Origin: Catenuloplanes niger
GTDB lineage: Bacteria; Actinomycetota; Actinomycetes; Mycobacteriales; Micromonosporaceae
NCBI RefSeq assembly: GCF_031458255.1
Contig: NZ_JAVDYC010000001.1
Coordinates: 5,961,001 to 6,025,000, forward strand
Reading direction: 5' to 3'
Length of the DNA: 64,000 nucleotides
In this document: positions 52,685 through 64,000 of the stretch, one piece after another
Layout: each line of letters opens with the position of its first letter
How positions within the stretch are numbered: position 1 is the stretch's first letter
The notes under the pieces: generated by a model
What the model was told of the DNA's origin: nothing
The model's input: the letters and a program-made list of their open reading frames with translations, nothing else
Database searches by the model: none
Program-made: the position numbers and the translations under genes

Positions 52685-54631
52685 ATGAGCGTTGAAGAGG
52701 ATCAGGTCACCGACGGCCGCTTGCTCAGCTCCGTCACCGGGCCGCAGGATCTCAAGCGTCTGACCACCGACGAGATGTCGGTGCTGGCGGCCGAGATCCG
52801 TGACTTCCTGGTGGCCAAGGTGTCCCGCACCGGCGGGCACCTGGGCCCGAACCTCGGCGTCGTGGAGCTCACGCTGGGCATGCACCGCGTGTTCGACTCG
52901 CCGCGTGACCGGTTCCTCTTCGACACCGGCCACCAGGCCTACGTGCACAAGATCCTGACCGGCCGTCAGGACGGCTTCGACCTGCTGCGTCAGCGCGGTG
53001 GCCTCTCCGGCTACCCGTCGCAGCAGGAGAGCGACCACGACCTGATCGAGAACTCGCACGCCTCCACCGCGCTCTCCTACGCGGACGGCATGGCGAAGGC
53101 GTACGCGTTGCGGGGCGAGGACCGGCACGTGGTCGCGATGGTCGGCGACGGCGCGCTCACCGGCGGCATGTGCTGGGAGGCGCTGAACAACATCGCCGCC
53201 ACCGAGAACAAGCTGGTCATCATCGTCAACGACAACGGCCGTTCCTACGCGCCGACGATCGGCGGCCTCTCCGACCACCTCGCCACGCTGCGGCTCAACC
53301 CGGGCTACGAGAAGGTGCTCGACCTGGTCAAGGACTCGCTCGGCGCCACGCCGGTGGTCGGCAAGCCGGTCTACGAGGTGCTGCACGCGGTCAAGCGCGG
53401 CATCAAGGACGCGGTCGCGCCGCAGTCGATGTTCGAGGACCTCGGCCTGAAGTACGTCGGCCCGATCGACGGCCACGACCAGGCCGCGGTGGAGACCGCG
53501 CTGCGCCGTGCCAAGGGCTTCAACGGCCCGGTCATCGTGCACGCGGTCACCAAGAAGGGCTTCGGCTACCGCCCGGCCGAGGAGGACGAGGCGGACTGCC
53601 TGCACGGTCCCGGCGCGTTCGACGCGGAGACCGGCAAGCTGCTCGCGGCGCCGTCCGTGAAGTGGACCGGCGTCTTCGCGGACGAGCTGGTCGCGATCGC
53701 GGACGAGCGGCCGGACGTGGTCGGCATCACCGCGGCCATGGCGGAGCCGACCGGCATCGCGAAGCTGGCCCGCAAGCACCCCGAGCGGGTGTACGACGTG
53801 GGCATCGCGGAGCAGCACGCGGCGACGTCCGCGGCCGGTCTCGCGCTGGCCGGGCTGCACCCGGTGGTCGCGGTCTACGCCACGTTCCTGAACCGGGCGT
53901 TCGACCAGGTGCTGCTGGACGTGGCGATGCACCGGCTGCCGGTCACGTTCGTGCTGGACCGCGCGGGCATCACCGGGCCGGACGGGCCCAGCCACTACGG
54001 CGTCTGGGACATGTCGGTCTTCGGCGTGGTCCCGGGCCTGCGGATCGCGGCACCGCGCGACGCGGCGACGCTGCGCGAGGAACTGCGCGAGGCGGTCGCG
54101 GTCGAGGACGGGCCGACCATCCTGCGCTTCCCGACCGGCTCGGTCGCGGCCGACCTGCCGGCACTGCGCCGGGTCGGCGGTGCGGACGGCGTCTCCGGCG
54201 GCGTGGACATCCTGGCCGAGCACGGCTCCGGCGCGGAGCGGGACGTGTTGATCGTCGCGGTGGGGGCGTTCGCGCACCTGGGCGTGGACGTGGCGGCGCG
54301 GGTGGCGGCCGAGCAGGGCTACAGCGTGACCGTGGTCGACCCCCGCTGGGTCCGGCCGGTGCCGATCGAGCTGGTGGCGCTGGCCCGCGAGCACCGTCTC
54401 GTGGTCACGCTGGAGGACGGCGTGCGCAACGGCGGCGTCGGCGACGCGGTCGCCAAGGCGCTGCGCGACGCCGAGGTGGACGTGCCGCTGCGCGACATCG
54501 GCGTGCCGAACGACTGGCACGCGCACGGCACGCGCGCGCAGATCCTGGCCGACCTGGGCATCACGGCGCAGGACGTCGCGCGGGACGTGGCGGCGTGGGC
54601 GTCCCGGGTGGTGCCGGCGCGCACCCACTGA
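52685..54631 (+). CDS. dxs: 1-deoxy-D-xylulose-5-phosphate synthase
   Basis: A 648-aa thiamine-diphosphate enzyme condensing pyruvate and glyceraldehyde 3-phosphate, the first step of the MEP isoprenoid pathway. TPP-binding motif [17 protein letters not shown] (about residues 158-174) with the downstream VNDN, the transketolase pyrimidine-binding region at about 320-480 ([18 protein letters not shown]) and the C-terminal domain to 640 are complete. It is the Rv2682c counterpart and the last gene of the conserved backbone here. Confidence 0.96.
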
Positions 54632-54646
54632 GGTATCCGAGCTGAA

Positions 54647-54676
54647 AAAGGGCCCCCGGTTGACCGGGGGCCCTTT
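54647..54676. terminator. Bidirectional terminator between dxs and the pectate lyase gene
   Basis: AAAGGGCCCCCGGT (54647-54660) pairs with ACCGGGGGCCCTTT (54663-54676), flanked by A and T runs on the two sides. It serves both convergent genes. Confidence 0.88.
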
Positions 54677-54680
54677 CGCG

Positions 54681-56174
54681 TTACTTGAAGGTCACGTCTG
54701 AAGTGCTGTATTTACAGGTGGTGCCGTCGGGTCCGGAGCCGGTCTTGGTGGGTTCCTTGCCGGTGGAGTTACCGGTGAAGCGGGTGCAGATGTCCATGCT
54801 CTTGTCGCCGATGACGGTGATGTTGCGGAAGGTCGCGGTGTCGCCGTAGTTGGTGTTGACGCCGGCGAGGAGGTCGCCGGGTGCGGTGACGGTGACGGTG
54901 TCGACGATGAGGGTGCGTTTGTACTGGGTGGAGCAGTTGCCGCAGGAGCGGTAGAGCTTGCCGAAGTCGGAGACCTGGAAGTTCTTGATGGTGAGGGTGC
55001 CGCCGCCGTTGTGCTGGAAGACCTTGTCGTCGGCCTTGCGGGCGCCGCCGCCGTCGATGGTGAACACGGCGTTGGCGCCGCCGCGGAAGGTGGCGGCATC
55101 CTCGCCGACGTCTTCCCACCAGACGTTGATCAGGGTGCAGGAGCCGGCGCAGTGCACGCCGTCCGCGGCGGGGGAGCCGAGGATGACGTTCTTGAGCGTG
55201 GCGCCGTCGGCGAGGTCGAAGATCGGGTCCTGGCCCTCGTCCTGCCCGGATCCGCCGAGCGCGCCGGTGCCGTAGTAGCGGGCCATGCCGCCGTCGAGCG
55301 TGCCGGAGACCTTGACCGAGGCGGAGACCGGCTTGGTGCCGGTCGCGGTCGGCCACGGCGCGTTCGGGCTCACCGCACCGCCACCGGTGGCCGGCGGGGC
55401 CGTGGTCTTGCCGGGGCTGGGTGCCGCGCTCGCGGTCTTGCTGGGGCTCGGCGCCGCGCTCGCGGACTTGGTCGGCGCGGGGCCGGCCGTGGTCGGCGCC
55501 GGGGCCGCGGTGGTCCGGCCCGGCGTGGGCTCGGTGCCGGCGCCGGCCGTGGTGGCGAGCACGTCGTCGAAGGACGCGGACGCCAGCGAGGTGACCAGGC
55601 CGAGCCGGCCCTTCGCCGCGACCGCGCTGGTGCCGGAGCCGACCGGCGTGCCGTCCACCCAGCCCTTCACGGTCGTGCCGCTCGCCTGGATCTGCAGCGT
55701 GTGGAACGTGCCGGTGGCCGACGCGACCGGCACCGAGCCGAGCACCGTGACCGCGCTGCCCTTGACGGTCTGCAGCTCGGCCGTGCCGGCCGAGGTCAGC
55801 ACCAGCCGGTAGAGCGTGGTCGGCCCGGACGCGCGGGCCGCCACCCCGGCGAAGCCGCCGGCACCGACCTCGACGGCCTTGACCTTCGCCTGCACCGCGT
55901 AGTCGGTCCAGGACGCGTCACCGGCGAAGACGCGGGCCGCCTCGCTGCCGGCCTTCGACTGCCGGTACGCCTTCGAGCCGTCGTCGACGACCGACCAGTC
56001 GCCGCCGGACTTGGACCAGCCGCTCGGCGCACCGGCCTCGAAGTTCTCGCTGAACAGCGTGGACGCGTTCGCGGACGGAACGGTCAGCGCGACCGCGGCG
56101 GCCGCGATCCCGGCGACGCCGGCCGCGGCGAGTCCGGCGTACATGCGCCGTCTCTTGGGTTGTTCTGTGGGCAT
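54681..56174 (-). CDS. Secreted multidomain pectate lyase, family PL3
   Basis: A 497-aa exported enzyme. Order: basic Sec signal (residues 1-38, cut after ANAS); a LamG/concanavalin-like beta-sandwich (about 40-210, LFSENFEAGAPSGWSKSGGD); a Pro/Ala/Thr/Ser linker (about 215-270); and a PL3 parallel beta-helix (about 285-497) with LKNVILGSPAADGVHC, CTLINVWWEDVGEDAATFRG and several disulfide cysteines. PL3 cleaves polygalacturonate by calcium-dependent beta-elimination, giving unsaturated oligogalacturonides that feed the KduI/KduD route. Codon use of the catalytic part is less GC3-biased than the N-terminal half, hinting that the modules have different histories. Confidence 0.9.
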   Translation of the reverse strand: MPTEQPKRRRMYAGLAAAGVAGIAAAAVALTVPSANASTLFSENFEAGAPSGWSKSGGDWSVVDDGSKAYRQSKAGSEAARVFAGDASWTDYAVQAKVKAVEVGAGGFAGVAARASGPTTLYRLVLTSAGTAELQTVKGSAVTVLGSVPVASATGTFHTLQIQASGTTVKGWVDGTPVGSGTSAVAAKGRLGLVTSLASASFDDVLATTAGAGTEPTPGRTTAAPAPTTAGPAPTKSASAAPSPSKTASAAPSPGKTTAPPATGGGAVSPNAPWPTATGTKPVSASVKVSGTLDGGMARYYGTGALGGSGQDEGQDPIFDLADGATLKNVILGSPAADGVHCAGSCTLINVWWEDVGEDAATFRGGANAVFTIDGGGARKADDKVFQHNGGGTLTIKNFQVSDFGKLYRSCGNCSTQYKRTLIVDTVTVTAPGDLLAGVNTNYGDTATFRNITVIGDKSMDICTRFTGNSTGKEPTKTGSGPDGTTCKYSTSDVTFK

Positions 56175-56368
56175 TGCTCCTGCTCTCCTGCGATCCGTGG
56201 GCGCGGGCGCGGCAGCCGCTGAAGGGGCGGCTGTGGGCGTGCGCTCGCGACATGATCAAGAAACCACGTGCGCGCGGCGGACTCCATTGGCCCGCGATTA
56301 GTTGTCCCTTAAGTTCTCCTTCGCACCGGCGGATCCGCTGCTTTCGATGCGATGTCATCCGGGGGCGG

Positions 56369-56374
56369 TACATT
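56369..56374 (+). promoter_or_regulatory. Leaderless -10 element (TACATT) of the propeller operon
   Basis: TACATT, 6 nt, then the GTG at 56381. It lies in the 206-bp gap divergent from the pectate lyase gene and is the only promoter-like motif seen for the following operon. Confidence 0.5.
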
Positions 56375-56380
56375 CGGCTC

Positions 56381-57652
56381 GTGCCCGCTGAGGTGACCAT
56401 TGACCTGGGTGTTCCGGCCGATGGGGAGCCGGACGGGCCCGGGGCGCCGGACGAGCCGGGACCACGGTCGCGCGCGGCCGTGGCTGTGGCGCTCGCGCTG
56501 CTGCTCGCGTTCACGGTCGCCGGGTCGGCGCCGGTGCACGACTCCGGATGGCGGGCCGGGCAGCTGCCGCTCGCGGCCGGGGACGACTTCGCGCTGGCCG
56601 GGGATCTGCTGGTGGTGGCCGGGCGGTCGACGGTCACGGCGTACCGGGTGCCGCTGCTGACCGTGATCTGGACGCTGCCGGTGCCGGCCGCGGAGGGCTA
56701 CTCGCTGACCGGCACCGGTGACCTGCTGGTGATCGGCGCGCGCAACGGGGTCGGCCGCCAGCAGGAGAGCCTGGTGGTGACCGCCGCGACCGGCCGGCTG
56801 CGGTGGCGGCACACCGGCCGGCTCGTCCCGGTGCCCGGCTCGGACGTGCTGCTGGCCGTCTCCGACGTGCGCAGCTCCTCCGGCTCGGGCCGGCGGGTGA
56901 CCGGCACGATCGAGGGGATCGACACGTTCGGCATGCGCCGCTGGTCGTTGCGGCTGCCGTCCAGCGCGGTCGCGGCACCGCTGCCGGACGGGGAGTTCCT
57001 GCTGGTCCACGACGACGGCACGACCCAGATCCGGGGCGCGTCCGACGCGGTGCCGCGCGCCGCCGGTGAGCTGCCGCCCGCGGCGTACGCGCCGGACAAC
57101 CCGCGGCTGGTCGGCGACGCGATCGTGCTGCGGCACCCGGGCGACAACACCAGCCGGATCAGCGGGTACGACCGGCGGACGCTCGCCCGCCGCTGGTCGC
57201 GCACGGTCGGCGGGCTGCAGAGCGTGGACCAGTGCGGTGACCTGCTCTGCCTCGGCACCACGATCGGCGTCCGCGCGCTCGACCCGTCGGACGGCTCCAA
57301 CGCGTGGGTCAGCCAATCCTGGCGCCGCACGCTCAGCTGGGGGGACATGACCATCGCGTACGGGCGGCCGACCGGCGTGGACGCGGAGCTCGCGCTCGTC
57401 GAGCCGATGACCGGTGGGTCACTGCTCGACCTCAGCGCGTGGCAGCAGGTGACTAGTGTGACGGATGACGTCGTGTTGGCTCACCCGGACGCGGCTCGCG
57501 GCGTTACGCTCGTCGCCACGGTGGCCTCCGACCAGCGGTCGGTGCGGGTCCTGGGCGCGATACCCGCGGCCTCGGGCGGCTGCCGGGCCGGCGGCGGCGT
57601 GCTCGCCTGCCGGCAGGGAGGCGGGATCTTGGGAGTGTGGGCGCTTGACTGA
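56381..57652 (+). CDS. Membrane-anchored PQQ-like beta-propeller protein, paralog 1
   Basis: A 423-aa type II membrane protein. It has a short acidic cytoplasmic N-terminus with the motif VTIDLGV, one transmembrane helix at about residues 31-47 (AAVAVALALLLAFTVAGSAP) and an extracytoplasmic domain of repeated beta-blades (GDLLVVAGRSTVTAY; TATGRLRWRHTG) of the PQQ/pyrrolo-quinoline type. No quinoprotein active-site residues are evident. It ends in C-x8-C-R-x8-W-x-L, as do its two paralogs downstream. GTG 56381 is chosen for the TACATT element. Function unknown. Confidence 0.82.
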   Translation: MPAEVTIDLGVPADGEPDGPGAPDEPGPRSRAAVAVALALLLAFTVAGSAPVHDSGWRAGQLPLAAGDDFALAGDLLVVAGRSTVTAYRVPLLTVIWTLPVPAAEGYSLTGTGDLLVIGARNGVGRQQESLVVTAATGRLRWRHTGRLVPVPGSDVLLAVSDVRSSSGSGRRVTGTIEGIDTFGMRRWSLRLPSSAVAAPLPDGEFLLVHDDGTTQIRGASDAVPRAAGELPPAAYAPDNPRLVGDAIVLRHPGDNTSRISGYDRRTLARRWSRTVGGLQSVDQCGDLLCLGTTIGVRALDPSDGSNAWVSQSWRRTLSWGDMTIAYGRPTGVDAELALVEPMTGGSLLDLSAWQQVTSVTDDVVLAHPDAARGVTLVATVASDQRSVRVLGAIPAASGGCRAGGGVLACRQGGGILGVWALD

Positions 57653-57670
57653 GCGCGGGGGTGCGCCGGC

Positions 57671-58984
57671 GTGATCGAGCTGGACCTGCGGGACGACCCG
57701 GTGCGCGAGGCGCCGACGCCGCGGGACTGGATGCATGGATCACGCTGGGTCGCTGTCGTGATCACGCTATGTCTACTGGCGACGGTGGCCGCGTCCGTGC
57801 CGCTGCACCGCGCGCTGAGCCTCACCGGCTCGGTGACGGTGCCGGCCGGCACCGACTTCACGCTCACCGACCGCCGGCTGTACACGATGCAGGCCGGGCG
57901 GGAGCCGGTCGTCTCCGCGTTCACGCTGACCGGTCAGCGGCTCTGGCAGGCGCGGTCCCGGTTCACCGGCGACGTGTCGTTCCAGGAGGCCGGCGACATG
58001 CTGCTGGTCACCGGCGTGAACCGCTCCGGGCAGCCGGAGACGCTCGGCGTCGACGCGCTCACCGGCACGCAGCGGTGGACCCGGCCGGAGCAGGTCGTGC
58101 CGCTGGCCGACGGGCGCACCGGGCTGGTCACCACGCCGCTCTTCCACGGCGACGTGCCGCCCGGCGCCACCGTCGTGGAGGACGCCGACGGCAACCTGAT
58201 CAACGTCGCGCCGACGTCCACCGCGCTGCGTGCGGTCGATCTGACGGACGGCCGTGACCTGTGGAGCGAGCGGTTCGGCGGCAGCGCGCGGCGCACCCTG
58301 CTGCCCGGCACCGCCGAGGTGGTGGTCGCGGAGCCGGCCGGGGTGAAGGTGCTGGACGCCCGGACGGGTGCGGTCCGGCGGTCGGTGGCGCTCGACGGCG
58401 GGTTCGCCATCGACGAGCTGCTCGTCTCCCCGCAGCTGATCATCGTGCAGCAGGGGCGGCGCGGGGGCGGGCACACGTACGCGTTCCGGCCGGACACGCT
58501 GGAGCAGGCCTGGCGCATCCAGCTGCCCGGCAACGTGGCGCTCGGCTACGGCTGCGACGACGTGCCCTGCGTGACCGACATGTCCACGGTCGGCGTGCTC
58601 GACCCGGAGACCGGCGCGGTGGCGTACCGCATCCCCGCCGCCACCCTGCTGCGCCTCGGCGGCCACACGCTGATCAGCCCGCAGGCCGCCGGCCTGGACC
58701 TGAGCGTCGTCACCGCCCCGGACGGCAGGGCCACGCCGCTGCCCGGGTGGAAGCTGCTGCTGCCCAACCTCGACCCGGCCGGGCGGTCCACGGCGCCCGC
58801 GCTGCTCACCCGGGAGGGCGACGGGCGGGCCTGGCTGGCCGCGCTGGACCGGTCCGGCACCCCGAAGGAGCTGGGCAGTCTCGCACCCGAGATACTCGAC
58901 TGCCAGTCCGCGTCGATGACGGTCGCCTGTCGCACCGGACTGCAGGAGATCAGGACCTGGCAGCTGCGGGGGGTGCGGCCGTGA
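57671..58984 (+). CDS. Membrane-anchored PQQ-like beta-propeller protein, paralog 2
   Basis: A 437-aa paralog of the previous gene, 18 bp downstream. It starts at GTG 57671 with IELDLRDDP, carries a helix at about residues 26-44 (WVAVVITLCLLATVAASVPL), and has blades with LTGQRLWQARS, DALTGTQRWTRPE and DLTDGRDLWSERF, the W-x-(R) strand ends typical of PQQ repeats. It shares C-x4-C before LDPETG and the C-x8-C-R-x8-W-x-L tail. It overlaps the EAL gene by GTGA. No enzymatic motif. Confidence 0.82.
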   Translation: MIELDLRDDPVREAPTPRDWMHGSRWVAVVITLCLLATVAASVPLHRALSLTGSVTVPAGTDFTLTDRRLYTMQAGREPVVSAFTLTGQRLWQARSRFTGDVSFQEAGDMLLVTGVNRSGQPETLGVDALTGTQRWTRPEQVVPLADGRTGLVTTPLFHGDVPPGATVVEDADGNLINVAPTSTALRAVDLTDGRDLWSERFGGSARRTLLPGTAEVVVAEPAGVKVLDARTGAVRRSVALDGGFAIDELLVSPQLIIVQQGRRGGGHTYAFRPDTLEQAWRIQLPGNVALGYGCDDVPCVTDMSTVGVLDPETGAVAYRIPAATLLRLGGHTLISPQAAGLDLSVVTAPDGRATPLPGWKLLLPNLDPAGRSTAPALLTREGDGRAWLAALDRSGTPKELGSLAPEILDCQSASMTVACRTGLQEIRTWQLRGVRP

Positions 58985-60252
58985 CCGTCACCGGCTCCCC
59001 GCGCGCCGCGCGGACCGTCGGCGAGATCATCGACGCGCGCGCGGTCACCACGCTCTTCCAGCCGCTGGTCGACCTGGAACGCCGCGAACCGGTCGGCTAC
59101 GAGGCGCTCAGCCGCGGCCCGGCCGGCACGCCATGGCAGGCGCCGATCGCGCTCTTCGAGGCCGCACGCGAGATCGGCCGGGCCGCCGAACTCGACTGGA
59201 TCTGCCGGGTCCGGGCGTACGAGGCGGCGCTCGCGGCCGGGCTCGACGACTCGATGACGCTCTTCGTGAACATCGAGCCGATGGCGCTGCGCACACCCTG
59301 CCCGGACGACCTCTTCCCGGCCACGCTCGCGGCCCAGGGCAAACTGCGGGTGGTCACCGAGATCACCGAGCGGGCCATCGCCGGTGACCCGTCCGCGCTG
59401 CTCAGCACGGCCGCGGCCTGCCGGGCCGTCGGGTGGGGCGTCGCGTTCGACGACGTCGGCAGCGACCCGGCGTCGCTGGCGCTGATGCCGCTGGTCCGGC
59501 CGGACGTGGTCAAGCTGGACATGGGGCTGCTGCACGACCCGCACCGCGTCGAGGTCGCACACGTGGTCAACGCGGCCATAGCGTACGCGGAACGGACCGG
59601 CGCGGTGATCCTCGCCGAGGGCATCGAGACCGAGGAACACCTGGAGCTGGCCCGGACCATGGGGGCCACGCTCGGTCAGGGCCTGCTCTTCGGTCCGCCG
59701 GCGCCGCTGCCGGTGCCGGCCGTGACCTGCGGGACCAGCGTGCCGCTGCTGCCCGCGGACGGGGTGCCGCCGGTGGCCGTACCGCCGAGGACGCCCTTCG
59801 AGATCGTCGCCGCCGCGAAGCCGGTGCTGCGGACGACCAAGGAGCGGCTGGCGCCGATCAGCCGGTTCCTGGAGTCCAAGGCGCGCGACGACGGCGAACC
59901 ACCGGTGCTGCTCGCCTGCTTCCAGGAGGCCCGGTTCTTCACGCCGTCGGTGGCGCAGCGGTTCGCGGACACGGCCACCACGGCCGCGTTCGTCGCGGTG
60001 CTCGGCGTCGGGCTGGACGAGCGGCCCGCGGCCGGCGTGCGCGGCGCCCGGCTCAGCGAGGACGACCCGCTGCGCGGCGAGTGGAACGTGATAGTGGTCG
60101 GCCCCTACTTCGCGGCCGCGCTGACCGCCCGGGACCTGGGCCTGAACGGGATGACCGAGGCGGAGCGCCGTTTCGAGTACGCACTGACCCACGACCGGGA
60201 ACTGGTGCTGGAGGCGGCGCGGGCACTCATGCACTGGATATCGCCGGTCTGA
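58981..60252 (+). CDS. EAL-domain protein with C-terminal DICT domain
   Basis: A 423-aa cytoplasmic protein. Residues about 12-245 form an EAL phosphodiesterase domain: EAL at 41-43, FVNIEP, VTEITERA, DDVGSD, VKLD, AEGIET and GQG, so most metal- and substrate-binding residues for c-di-GMP hydrolysis are kept; VGS stands where FGT/FGS is usual. Residues about 265-415 resemble a DICT sensory domain (PPVLLACFQEARFFTPSVAQ). The gene is sandwiched and coupled between two propeller paralogs, so c-di-GMP turnover is probably tied to the signal they sense. Whether it is active or a c-di-GMP receptor is open. Confidence 0.85.
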   Translation: MTVTGSPRAARTVGEIIDARAVTTLFQPLVDLERREPVGYEALSRGPAGTPWQAPIALFEAAREIGRAAELDWICRVRAYEAALAAGLDDSMTLFVNIEPMALRTPCPDDLFPATLAAQGKLRVVTEITERAIAGDPSALLSTAAACRAVGWGVAFDDVGSDPASLALMPLVRPDVVKLDMGLLHDPHRVEVAHVVNAAIAYAERTGAVILAEGIETEEHLELARTMGATLGQGLLFGPPAPLPVPAVTCGTSVPLLPADGVPPVAVPPRTPFEIVAAAKPVLRTTKERLAPISRFLESKARDDGEPPVLLACFQEARFFTPSVAQRFADTATTAAFVAVLGVGLDERPAAGVRGARLSEDDPLRGEWNVIVVGPYFAAALTARDLGLNGMTEAERRFEYALTHDRELVLEAARALMHWISPV

Positions 60253-60269
60253 CGGTCTAAGACTGTCTG

Positions 60270-61595
60270 ATGGTCTCCATCGATCTCGGCGTGATCTCCG
60301 ATCCGCGGCCGGAGCCGGTCCCGTCCCGGCCGCGCCCGCCCCGGACCCGCCGGGCGATCGGGGCCGGGCTCTGCCTGCTGCTGGCCGCCGCGCTGCTCGG
60401 CGCGTCGGCGCGTTCGGCGCGTCCGGACCTGCCGGAGGCGCGGGTGGAGCTCTCCCCGAGCGACGCGTACTTCGTCGACGGCGGCCGGCTCTACGTGGTC
60501 GGGCCGGACAGCCAGGGGTACGACCGGGTGCCGCGGACGATCACGGCGTACACCCTGCCCGGTGGCGAACGGCTGTGGCAGCGGCCGCTGGAGATCGACG
60601 GGCCGCTCAACGGGATGGTCGCGGTCGGCGACAAGCTGCTGCTGCACGTGAGCGGCGGCGGGACCGGCCAGGCGATGGTCGCGCTGGACCGGGAGACGGC
60701 CGAGCCCCGGTGGCGGGCCGAAGCCGGCTGGGCGGTGTCGACGACCGCGGACCGCGTGGTGTTCAGCGCGGAGGGGGACGGCACCGGCGACCCGCTCACC
60801 TGGCGGGCCGTGCGCACCGGCACCGGCCAGGAGCTGTGGCGGCGCGAGTTCCCGCCGCAGTCGTACACGCTCTACTCGTACGGCTGGGGCACGCGGTTGT
60901 TGATGGTGGTGCTCCCCGGCGACCGGGTCGAACTGTGGGACCTGGACGCCGGCCGGCGACTCGCCGCGACGCGGGTGCCGGCGGACGCCGCGGTCTCCGT
61001 CACCACCGAGTCGGTGCTCGCCGTCGTCCCCCGGGACGGCAGCGCCGACGTCACCGCCTACGCGCTGCCGGATCTGCGGCCGCTGTGGCAGCGCACGGTC
61101 CCCGGCGGCTTCGGCCAGGCCGGCTGCGGCGGCCGGGTGCTCTGCGTCGCGACCGAGGCGCAGGACCGCACGGTGGGGATCGACCCGGCGACCGGGGAAC
61201 GGCTCTGGGAGAGCCCGGCGTACGGCTGGTACTCCGAGATCGGGTCGATGCTGCTCGCCGAGGGACAGGTCCGGAGTGAGGGCGGGGGCGTGTTCATCGG
61301 GAACGGGCCGCTCGTCGCGCTGGACAGCCGTACCGGCCGGGAGATCCGGGATTTCGGTCCCTGGCGGCGCCTCAGCTTCGGGAGGCCCGAGGCCGCGCGG
61401 CGCACCGTGGCCGTGTACTTCGACTCGAGCACCGGCACCGCGCTGGTCGCCGAGGTCGACCTGGACGCGATGTCGCTGCGCGTGCTCGGCCGCATCCACC
61501 AGGTCGACCCGGACTGCCTCGCCGAAGGAGACGCGATGATCTGCCGGCGGCGGGACGGCTCCCTCGGCATATGGGATCTGCCGGTCGGTTCCTGA
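60270..61595 (+). CDS. Membrane-anchored PQQ-like beta-propeller protein, paralog 3
   Basis: A 441-aa third paralog with N-terminal VSIDLGV, a helix at about residues 29-45 (AIGAGLCLLLAAALLGASAR) and propeller blades (LPGGERLWQRPLEI; DRETAEPRWRAEAG; DPATGERLWESPA). The C-x5-C pair and the C-x8-C-R-x8-W-x-L tail are preserved. It starts 17 bp after the EAL gene. With the two other copies it forms a tandem family interrupted by a signalling gene. Confidence 0.82.
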   Translation: MVSIDLGVISDPRPEPVPSRPRPPRTRRAIGAGLCLLLAAALLGASARSARPDLPEARVELSPSDAYFVDGGRLYVVGPDSQGYDRVPRTITAYTLPGGERLWQRPLEIDGPLNGMVAVGDKLLLHVSGGGTGQAMVALDRETAEPRWRAEAGWAVSTTADRVVFSAEGDGTGDPLTWRAVRTGTGQELWRREFPPQSYTLYSYGWGTRLLMVVLPGDRVELWDLDAGRRLAATRVPADAAVSVTTESVLAVVPRDGSADVTAYALPDLRPLWQRTVPGGFGQAGCGGRVLCVATEAQDRTVGIDPATGERLWESPAYGWYSEIGSMLLAEGQVRSEGGGVFIGNGPLVALDSRTGREIRDFGPWRRLSFGRPEAARRTVAVYFDSSTGTALVAEVDLDAMSLRVLGRIHQVDPDCLAEGDAMICRRRDGSLGIWDLPVGS

Positions 61596-61673
61596 CCGCT
61601 CCTCACGGCGGTTTAACATCCGGCCTGATTGGCTTCACGCGGGTGTGCGTCTCGAACGGGATTGGCGGGAACG

Positions 61674-62351
61674 ATGCGGGTTCTGGTCGTCGAGGATGAG
61701 CGGAACCTGGCCGACGCGATCGCGCGTGGCCTGCGCCGCAAGGGCATGGCGGTGGACGTGGCCTACGACGGCACCACCGGGCACGAGATGGCGTTCGTCA
61801 CCCGGTACGACGTGGTCGTGCTGGACCGCGACCTGCCCGGCGTGCACGGCGACCAGATCTGCGCCGACCTGGCCGCGTCCGGCGCGCTGACCCGGGTGCT
61901 GATGCTCACCGCCAGCGTCACGATCGCGGACCGGGTCGAGGGCCTGCAACTCGGGGCGGACGACTACCTGCCCAAGCCGTTCGCGTTCGACGAGCTGGTC
62001 GCGCGCGTGCAGGCGCTCGGCCGCCGCGCCACCCCGCCGGCGCCGCCCGTGCTCAGCGCCGCCGACCTGGTGCTCGATCAGGCCCGCCGGGTTGTCACCC
62101 GGGCCGGCGGGGTGCTGCAGCTGACCAACAAGGAGTTCGGCGTGCTGGAGGAGCTGCTCAAGGCGCGCGGCGCCGTGGTCTCCACCGAGGAGCTGCTGGA
62201 ACGCGTCTGGGACGAGAACACCGACCCGTTCACCACCACCGTGCGGGTCACCATGAACACGCTGCGCCGCAAGCTCGGCGACCCGCCGATGATCGAGACC
62301 GTGGTGGGGGCCGGTTACCGCATCACGTCGTTCTCGGACGCCGCGTCATGA
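61674..62351 (+). CDS. OmpR/PhoB family response regulator
   Basis: A 225-aa two-component regulator. The receiver domain is at residues 1-115, with the acidic pair E7/D8, phospho-acceptor Asp51 (VVLDRDLPG), Thr in LTAS and the switch Lys in PKPF. The C-terminal winged helix is at about 125-220 (EFGVLEELLKARGAVVSTEE). ATG 61674 rather than an upstream in-frame ATG fits the family start MRVLVVEDE. It overlaps the kinase gene by ATGA. The propeller genes just upstream are candidate targets or inputs. Confidence 0.93.
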   Translation: MRVLVVEDERNLADAIARGLRRKGMAVDVAYDGTTGHEMAFVTRYDVVVLDRDLPGVHGDQICADLAASGALTRVLMLTASVTIADRVEGLQLGADDYLPKPFAFDELVARVQALGRRATPPAPPVLSAADLVLDQARRVVTRAGGVLQLTNKEFGVLEELLKARGAVVSTEELLERVWDENTDPFTTTVRVTMNTLRRKLGDPPMIETVVGAGYRITSFSDAAS

Positions 62352-63490
62352 GCCCGCTGATGCGACCCACGCTGCGGCTCCGGCTGACCGTGCTGAACGG
62401 GATCCTGCTGGTCGGCGCCGGCGCGATCATGCTGGTCCTGGCCTGGATGCTGATCGACAACGTGCTGCACCCGGCCGACTCGCTGCTGCCCGGCACCCAG
62501 GTGGCGCTCGCCGACGGCAGCCGCCTCCCGGTGGAGGTCTGGCAGGACCGGATGGTCGCCGGCGCGCGGGCCGAGCTGCTGGCCAAGGGCCTGCTCGCGC
62601 TGATCGCGATCGGCGTCGCCGGGATCGCCGGCGCGTACGTGGTCGCCGGGCGGGCGCTGCGCCCGCTGCACCAGGTCACCGCGACGGCCCGGCGGCTCGG
62701 CGGCGAGACGCTGGACCAGCGGATCCGCTACTCCGGCGCGAACGACGAGGTCGCTGAGCTGGCCGCCACGTTCGATGCGATGCTGGACCGGCTCACCGAG
62801 TCGTTCGAGTCGCAGAAACGCTTCGTGGCGAACGCGTCGCACGAGCTGCGCACGCCGCTCGCGGTCATGCGGACCGAGATCGACGTCACGCTGAGCGACG
62901 ACGAGGCGGACATCCAGGAGTACCGCCGGATGGCGATGGTGGTCCGCGACGCCTCCGAACGCGCGAACGGGCTGGTCGACGCGCTGCTCATTCTGGCCCG
63001 CAGCGAGGCGCAGTCGGGGCGGCGACTCGCCCGGAAGGTGCCGTTCGACATCACCGACGGTGTGCACGCGGCGCTGTCCGCGCAGAAGAACGAGATGGCC
63101 CGGCTGAAACTGGACGTCGCGACCGACCTGCGGCCGGCCGTGGTGGTGGGCGATCCGGGGCTGCTGGAGCGGCTGGCCGGCAACCTGATCGAGAACGCGG
63201 TCCGCTACAACCACCTGCACGGACGCCTGTGGGTCCGGACCGACGTGCCGGCGCCCGGCGTGGTGCGGCTCGTGGTGGGCAACACCGGGTTCGAGGTCGA
63301 CCAGGCCGACGTACCGGGGTTGTTCGAGCCGTTCCGGCGCGGTGGACGCGAGCGGACCGGGGCCCGCGGCAGCGGTCTGGGGCTGTCGATCGTGAACGCG
63401 GTGTGCGAGGCGCACGGGGCGACGGTGGGCGCGGTGGCGCAGCACGGCGGCGGCCTCGAGGTGACGGTGACACTGCCGGGCGCGGTGTAG
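62348..63490 (+). CDS. Membrane sensor histidine kinase
   Basis: A 380-aa kinase with two helices (about residues 14-37 and 80-101) bracketing a small extracytoplasmic loop of about 40 residues. HAMP is at about 101-153, HisKA with His165 in NASHELRTPLAVMRTE, and HATPase_c with NLIENAVRYN (N box), then a degenerate D-box region and the G2 box RGSGLGLSIV. The tiny sensor loop suggests that it senses membrane state or a partner, possibly the neighbouring propeller proteins. It partners the preceding regulator. Confidence 0.93.
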   Translation: MSPLMRPTLRLRLTVLNGILLVGAGAIMLVLAWMLIDNVLHPADSLLPGTQVALADGSRLPVEVWQDRMVAGARAELLAKGLLALIAIGVAGIAGAYVVAGRALRPLHQVTATARRLGGETLDQRIRYSGANDEVAELAATFDAMLDRLTESFESQKRFVANASHELRTPLAVMRTEIDVTLSDDEADIQEYRRMAMVVRDASERANGLVDALLILARSEAQSGRRLARKVPFDITDGVHAALSAQKNEMARLKLDVATDLRPAVVVGDPGLLERLAGNLIENAVRYNHLHGRLWVRTDVPAPGVVRLVVGNTGFEVDQADVPGLFEPFRRGGRERTGARGSGLGLSIVNAVCEAHGATVGAVAQHGGGLEVTVTLPGAV

Positions 63491-64000
63491 CGGGTCACGC
63501 CGTCCGGCCCGGTTGGCCTGGGGCCGTTCGGTTGGTCCAGCCGATGCGTGTCCCGGTGTCCCGGTGTCCCGGTGTCGCTGGTTCACGGGTGCCCGCTGAT
63601 CGTTGTTGCCGGCGGTGCCGCTGGGGCGGGTAACCGGCGTGCCGGACGCATCACCCGTTCGTTGATCGCGTTCCGCTTCGGCTCCATTTCCCGCACGAAG
63701 CTGATGTTCCCGCTTCCGGCGTGGTGGCGGTCCGCATGCTCCCGCGGGCACCGGTCGGCCGTTGGCCGGCCTTCCTGTCTGTGCCGTGGGTGGTCACCCC
63801 AACCCATGCGGTCGCGGCGTTTTCCCAGGCCGCGCCGTTCGCGGTTGCCTCGCACCGTGCACCGCCGGCGTCGGTGAAGGCCGGCGGACGGGGCCTCGCC
63901 GGCGGCCGATCGGTCACGTTGTCCGGCGGTTATCCACAGGTCTGGTGACGGGCCGGTGGCGGACGGCAGCGTATAAGGCGTGTTCGATGGATGGGTCAAA
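63491..64000. other. 510-bp terminal interval without a supported gene
   Basis: It contains an 8-bp tandem repeat (GTGTCCCG, three units plus a partial one from 63548), dispersed element copy E (63707-63810) and a single DnaA-box-like TTATCCACA at 63930-63938. The remainder is GC-rich without a convincing start or codon bias. Confidence 0.6.
63707..63810 (+). repeat. Dispersed 104-bp element, copy E
   Basis: It begins TTCCCGCTTCCGGCG, contains GCATGCTCCCGCGGGCACC and GGCCGTTGGCCGGCC, and ends ACCCATGCG. It matches the complement of copy A (22117-22220) end to end at equal length. It lies 216 bp after the histidine kinase gene. Confidence 0.85.

Follow-up and report, generated by a model that had tools for sequence, protein, structure and literature searches.

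The 64,000-nucleotide stretch of Catenuloplanes niger DNA analyzed here (assembly GCF_031458255.1, contig NZ_JAVDYC010000001.1, positions 5,961,001 to 6,025,000, forward strand), hereafter the window, carries on its plus strand an array of three membrane-anchored beta-propeller paralogs, interrupted by an EAL-DICT gene and followed by an OmpR-type two-component system. Propeller copy 1 (56381..57652; GTG at 56381, alternative GTG at 56393) has an I-D-L-G start and matches Pfam PQQ_2 at 1.1e-6, copy 2 (57671..58984) has an I-E-L start and a PQQ_2 match at 9.6e-12, and copy 3 (60270..61595; PQQ_2, 6.4e-15) is the regulator-proximal one. The gene of the EAL-DICT protein, of the cyclic di-GMP (c-di-GMP) phosphodiesterase type (58981..60252; EAL 3e-30 and DICT 1.7e-11, each past its Pfam cut-off), shares 4 bp with the end of copy 2 and stops 17 bp before copy 3. 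The gene for an OmpR-family response regulator (61674..62351; Response_reg, Trans_reg_C) begins 78 bp after copy 3 and is followed by that of a histidine kinase (62348..63490) with two helices, a loop of ~45 residues without cysteine, and HAMP, HisKA, and HATPase_c domains; the receiver, DNA-binding, HAMP, HisKA, and HATPase domains all scored above the Pfam cut-offs. A direct repeat upstream of the regulator, CTCAC-N6-TTAAC (61602..61617), is a candidate regulator site. Open reading frames and Pfam searches confirmed the frames, spacings, and motifs described in an earlier interpretation made from the DNA alone (the sequence-only reading), including the placement of the EAL-DICT gene and the distance from copy 3 to the regulator.

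Each propeller in the window has one strong hydrophobic stretch near its N-terminus and passes the Pfam cut-off for PQQ_2, the sole family passed; identity to copy 1 is 25% for copy 2 and 29% for copy 3. All three carry the tail C-x8-C-R-x8-W-x-L, together with a central cysteine pair, spaced C-x5-C in copy 3 and C-x4-C in the other two, as had been claimed. The cytoplasmic start thought to be common to the three copies stands as a shared element, which is I-[DE]-L and not I-D-L-G, as copy 2 reads I-E-L-D-L-R. Conservation was assessed in 95 aligned propellers, gathered with a profile built from 26 family members that favors the family's own conserved features. The tail cysteines (416/425, copy 3 numbering) were kept in all 95, and the central cysteines (286/292) in 93, with both members gone in the two exceptions. 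Within I-[DE]-L, I4 was kept in 94 propellers and L6 in 93, and the four cysteines and these two residues were all among the eight most conserved positions. The joint keeping or loss of the cysteine pairs is consistent with two disulfides (in copy 3, C286-C292 and C416-C425), by which the propeller is probably held. So well conserved an I-[DE]-L is surprising in a short cytoplasmic tail and points to an intracellular partner. Pyrroloquinoline quinone-dependent quinoprotein dehydrogenases have an adjacent cysteine pair near the cofactor; no adjacent cysteines occur in the three window propellers. In the window's genome, a profile of the three sequences matched only copies 1 to 3 at E 0.001 (150 of 175 candidates scored), and a wider propeller profile gave one further match at E 1e-10.

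The distribution of these genes was followed in 200 Micromonosporaceae genomes from 44 genera. The kinase matched 173 genomes at E 1e-80, in one place each and in 39 of the 44 genera, and the propeller profile matched 158 genomes at E 1e-10; eight candidates were scored per genome, so propeller copy counts are lower bounds. A propeller match was present in 154 of the 173 kinase-bearing genomes, compared with four of the 27 lacking the kinase. Gene neighborhoods were examined at 54 kinase loci from 38 genera and in two named records. The genus count leaves out L132 (g38) and L157 (g4), whose contigs end near the regulator, L155 (g5), with no kinase match past the filter, and L158, with no match; the spacing count leaves out L010, L011, L105, L106, and L113, which are duplicates or without the kinase. 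Linked propellers, one to six per locus, were found at 41 of the 54 kinase loci and in 29 of the 38 testable genera. The last propeller lay ≤214 bp from the regulator at 36 of the 43 loci holding both (the two named records included). Propellers and two-component system thus make up one conserved unit, and the sequence-only reading is upheld in joining them. At the remaining seven loci, an opposite-strand gene lies between them in six and an 8.5-kb gap in one (g27), where transporter-type genes separate the propellers from the regulator and kinase. The three opposite-strand genes tested (L108:3997-5190, L120:9042-10220, and L133:3345-4574) are all Peptidase_C39_2; such genes occupy the same place in L109, L117, and L121, and none was found in the window's genus. 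At L129 (G030), ABC transporter-type genes (named by eye), apparently an insertion, separate the dxs-adjoining propeller from the regulator and kinase.

The order dxs, propellers, regulator, kinase was found at 31 of the 41 propeller-bearing loci. Propellers and regulator also stand together at the 10 loci without dxs in the fetched stretch (e.g., g4, g20, and g23), some of these stretches being short. The conserved core of the system is one to six propellers, the regulator, and the kinase, often behind dxs, and the variation in propeller number includes lineage-specific duplications. Among 148 genomes of the class, full-length propeller matches were found in only two, both of Micromonosporaceae, and four partial matches lay inside open frames of ~3,100 amino acids; on these profile matches, the propeller type looks confined to Micromonosporaceae. 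At L105 and L106, two propellers lie between a protein phosphatase-like gene and molybdenum hydroxylase-like subunit genes (named by eye).

The extracytoplasmic part of the kinase comprises ~45 residues or fewer. Its first helix is separated from HAMP by a stretch of 93 to 94 residues in 29 of the 38 genera and of 45 to 66 in the other nine. This stretch is free of cysteine in 51 of the 54 kinases; the other three are short-loop kinases, one of which (L150) has its cysteine in the remnant of the loop. The window's kinase and the other four kinases of its genus have no extracellular cysteine. With so short an extracytoplasmic part, mostly without cysteine, the kinase itself offers little for sensing. 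Of the 29 long-loop genera, 25 have linked propellers, versus four of the nine short-loop genera (Fisher p 0.02, ignoring ancestry).

The direct repeat, in the general form YTMAC-N6-YTMAC, had 14 matches, from 10 genera, in the 9,120 bp upstream of the regulator and three matches in 718,361 bp elsewhere in 57 loci, an enrichment that is not an independent count because the pattern was derived from the same loci. The strict form, YTCACRNNGRYTTMAC, occurs once in the window's genome (61602-61617); the four further genomes of the genus have one or two occurrences each. Across the 200 genomes, it was found at 108 places in 72 genomes; 28 of these places share the strand of the kinase match and precede it by 727 to 1232 bp, where the regulator promoter is expected. 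The repeat at 61602-61617 is a candidate site for an OmpR-family regulator, probably the neighboring one, and its presence suggests that a separate promoter serves the regulator and kinase. In the window, the repeat had no match upstream of copy 1 with up to one mismatch allowed, and 8-mer counts gave no shared regulator site upstream of copy 1. A scan for MtrA sites gave very many matches, the motif being short.

Gene order is the same in all five genomes of the window's genus, the window's included, with a fourth propeller in one (G003), and the 4-bp overlap of copy 2 with the EAL-DICT gene is present in all five. This constancy, with the high rank of the four cysteines and of the I and L of I-[DE]-L among conserved positions, takes the layout beyond chance. 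Mean amino acid identity over the genus was 95% for dxs, 93% for EAL-DICT and for the regulator, and 90% for the kinase, and 82%, 71%, and 52% for propeller copies 1, 2, and 3, respectively. Among the seven genes compared, copy 3 evolves fastest (G003 was represented by the first of its two copies), and copies 1 and 2 are slower. The mean nonsynonymous divergence (dN) of copy 3 was 0.41, versus 0.03 to 0.06 for dxs, EAL-DICT, the regulator, and the kinase, and its synonymous divergence (dS) was 0.28 to 0.55, versus 0.15 to 0.29 for dxs and 0.20 to 0.47 for the kinase. Positive selection on copy 3, considered in view of a dN/dS near 1, was dropped: neutral simulation at the GC content of the genus gave, owing to GC bias, a dN/dS of 1.4 to 1.85 by the same method, and a value near 1 against that neutral expectation points to weak constraint, not proven positive selection. 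In the Micromonospora craterilacus locus L011, the first 45 residues of copies 2 and 3 (7827 and 9131) are nearly identical, which suggests a recent duplication or gene conversion.

The EAL-DICT gene is found in the array in all five genomes of the window's genus and at none of the 49 other kinase loci scanned. Relatives at E 1e-60 were present in 73 of the 200 genomes. Those in other genera that are 57 to 64% identical lie on another contig or >1 Mb from the kinase, judged by eye where both places were known and with G027 left out. In eight neighborhoods of 60 to 63% identical relatives, no neighbor was common to more than two: two of one genus share two genes, and two further pairs share one gene, at 36 to 43% identity. 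Found in the array only in the window's genus, and without widely shared neighbors elsewhere, EAL-DICT appears to have entered the array in a single genus. It lies outside the core of the system and does not define it, which removes c-di-GMP turnover from the place that the sequence-only reading had given it. A lack of any link between propeller and c-di-GMP genes, which that reading had named as counting against it, is what was found outside the window's genus, and the reverse was found inside it. Within the array of this genus, EAL-DICT may well be functional: EAL, the N of VNIEP, EITE, DD, the K of VKLD, the E of AEGIE, and the Q of GQG align with solved EAL domains, and DVG stands in place of DFG. 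The aligned residues belong to the catalytic site of EAL domains. A second gene of the EAL-DICT type in the same genome (L002; G000:C1:8216092-8217261) is 45% identical and has no propeller in the 4 kb fetched.

With slightly better than even confidence, and by analogy with LpqB and MtrB, we read the array as a multicomponent system of Micromonosporaceae in which the propellers are accessory extracytoplasmic sensors of the neighboring kinase. One to six single-pass proteins would display PQQ-like propellers outside the cell and serve one kinase. They would report the state of the envelope or of a ligand through the kinase loop and membrane helices, or through the cytoplasmic I-[DE]-L. The kinase would phosphorylate the OmpR-type regulator, and the regulator would probably act on its own promoter by way of the direct repeat (61602-61617). 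The EAL-DICT protein that joined the array in the window's genus may provide a further output there, through c-di-GMP. Candidate signals are the redox or folding state of the envelope, in view of the cysteine pairs, and a variable ligand, given how fast the regulator-proximal copy evolves. A bolder form of this proposal, which we consider rather unlikely, is that one nearly sensor-less kinase reads fast-evolving and interchangeable disulfide-locked propellers of variable number, such that the disulfide sensing proposed for the cysteines of CutS would have moved into separate proteins.

Several observations weigh against an accessory sensor role. The kinase-less genomes that contribute to the co-occurrence of kinase and propellers come mostly from one genus (22 of 27), and the co-occurrence counts ignore shared ancestry. 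The kinase occurs without linked propellers in nine of the 38 genera, four of these with the full loop, and can therefore do without propellers. Conversely, four genera keep propellers despite a short loop, and the association between loop and propellers is likewise uncorrected for ancestry. Propellers with the same motifs are found away from the kinase in the Plantactinospora-type genomes L105 and L106 and in one g34 genome (L113); as these are among the 95 aligned, I-[DE]-L is not exclusive to kinase-linked copies. Furthermore, the strict repeat was matched in only 22 of the 44 genera, and its 80 places off the promoter exceed the 38 matches of a reversed control, so the repeat also marks sites unrelated to this locus and is not system specific. 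Other OmpR-type regulators, e.g., PhoP, use similar 11-bp repeats.

The propellers might instead serve envelope structure or assembly, as BamB-like scaffolds that the two-component system regulates or whose failure it answers, and not sense for it. PQQ_2 (BamB) is the only Pfam family that they pass, their best profile matches among solved structures are BamB proteins (4hdj and 9pxg), and stand-alone propellers exist. This explanation is nevertheless doubtful: copy 1 has no match to the BamB equivalog and copies 2 and 3 fall well short of its cut-off, fast divergence is unsuited to a scaffold, and the candidate regulator site lies upstream of the regulator, with none upstream of copy 1 at up to one mismatch in the window. 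In addition, BamB acts in an outer-membrane machine that these bacteria lack. Fast divergence would suit rapidly diversifying surface receptors for a phage, a competitor's product, or kin that lie beside the two-component system mainly for co-regulation. The high dN of copy 3, with a dS about the same to twice as high as in the other genes, and the lineage-specific duplications, with one to six copies per locus, agree with such receptors, but a dN/dS near 1 means weak constraint given the neutral value, copies 1 and 2 evolve more slowly, and PADLOC, consulted for a link to defense, returned no match for the propellers and a weak receiver-domain match only for the regulator. The chance that the propellers are such receptors seems small.

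An array built to feed c-di-GMP turnover through EAL-DICT, as the sequence-only reading proposed, is now improbable. The 4-bp overlap of copy 2 and EAL-DICT in all five genomes of the genus, the EAL active-site residues, and the slow evolution of EAL-DICT would all be in keeping with it, whereas the 49 other kinase loci have no EAL-DICT, relatives elsewhere lie apart from the kinase where both places are known, and the eight neighborhoods of such relatives have no neighbor common to more than two. Least credible of all is passive synteny, in which propellers and two-component system are merely old neighbors of dxs; dxs is indeed in the same stretch at 31 of 41 propeller-bearing loci, but propeller and regulator remain together at the 10 loci without dxs in the fetched stretch, and kinase and propellers co-occur across genomes. 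The role of the propellers as accessory sensors of the kinase is the reading that we retain.

The breadth of the system lends this reading its interest, as the kinase occurs in most sampled genera of the family, yet literature searches gave no paper on the system. Micromonosporaceae are rich in antibiotic producers. Should the propellers indeed act as its sensors, the kinase would belong to a multireceptor two-component system spanning the family, with receptors that can be counted and separated. It would also allow a direct test of whether partner proteins, and not the kinase, read the extracytoplasmic disulfide state, a question that work on CutS leaves open outside Streptomyces.

Further features of the window flank the array. 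A block just 5' of the first start codon (56363..56380, plus strand; TACATT at 56369-56374) is conserved in the alignment of the five genomes of the genus. It is promoter-like and could be read as the promoter of a leaderless transcript; a simple promoter scan found nothing at this block before copy 1. A pectate lyase-type gene (Pectate_lyase, 8.9e-79) lies on the minus strand at window positions 54681-56144, divergent to the array. Rfam gave no RNA element in 54000-64000, and a search for tRNAs found none.

Searches of the literature at the level of titles, abstracts, and passages found no described system or paper in which propellers are linked to this type of kinase, in agreement with the sequence-only reading, which, however, did not name a parallel that does exist, MtrAB-LpqB. 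Several other known systems share single features with the array. The window's EAL-DICT protein resembles other EAL-DICT phosphodiesterase-type proteins in having both domains and the EAL active-site residues, and differs in its place inside a propeller array, seen only in the window's genus. The propellers share with BamB the PQQ_2 domain and PQQ-type repeats, but against the equivalog model TIGR03300 (cut-off, 285.2 bits) the scores are 25.6 for copy 2 and 25.9 for copy 3, and copy 1 has no match. Unlike BamB, the window propellers have one helix, at the N-terminus, together with a motif on the cytoplasmic side and two cysteine pairs that are conserved.

The closest well-studied relative of the kinase is CutRS. 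The regulator and kinase are 65 to 66% and 40 to 42% identical, respectively, to the pair of genome family f19, taken to be Streptomyces, and the kinases of both systems have a small extracytoplasmic part. Passages of PMC12802291 describe two conserved extracellular cysteines in CutS, and state that only 6.9% of the CutS homologues from a reciprocal search have two or more such cysteines. All 11 f19 kinases fetched have two extracellular cysteines. In a tree of 43 rows, the 12 Micromonosporaceae kinases form a clade of their own (support, 100/99), apart from CutS-like kinases. Membership in CutRS, suggested by the similarity of the regulators, was ruled out by the cysteine test and the kinase tree. 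The CutRS regulator motif is given in the same source as TAWATAAA (PMC12802291); a different repeat is enriched upstream of the regulator here. HbpS-SenS-SenR of Streptomyces likewise has an accessory extracytoplasmic protein; HbpS is described in parts of PMC4991794 as a secreted accessory protein that modulates the kinase SenS in a redox-linked way. It is a secreted octamer that binds iron ions, in contrast to the membrane-anchored propellers of the array.

The nearest parallel in layout is the three-component system MtrAB-LpqB of actinobacteria, in which the genes of an OmpR-type regulator and kinase likewise adjoin that of an extracytoplasmic protein anchored in the membrane. In that system, the accessory protein acts by contact with the extracellular domain of the kinase and changes phosphotransfer. 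There, one Gmad1 lipoprotein is encoded downstream of the kinase, whereas here one to six single-pass PQQ_2 propellers are encoded upstream of the regulator. Gmad1 is the family of LpqB; the window propellers match PQQ_2 and not Gmad1, and the sole Gmad1 match of the window's genome lies away from the array, at G000:C1:3133070. The regulator scores 142 bits against the MtrA model, compared with the NCBIfam cut-off of 300, and is not MtrA. According to passages of PMC10714768, an MtrA target in A. deccanensis is annotated as a PQQ-binding-like propeller protein; a match to the window propeller family would need its sequence. As domain family, gene order, copy number, and regulator all differ from those of MtrAB-LpqB, the array is not assigned to that system.

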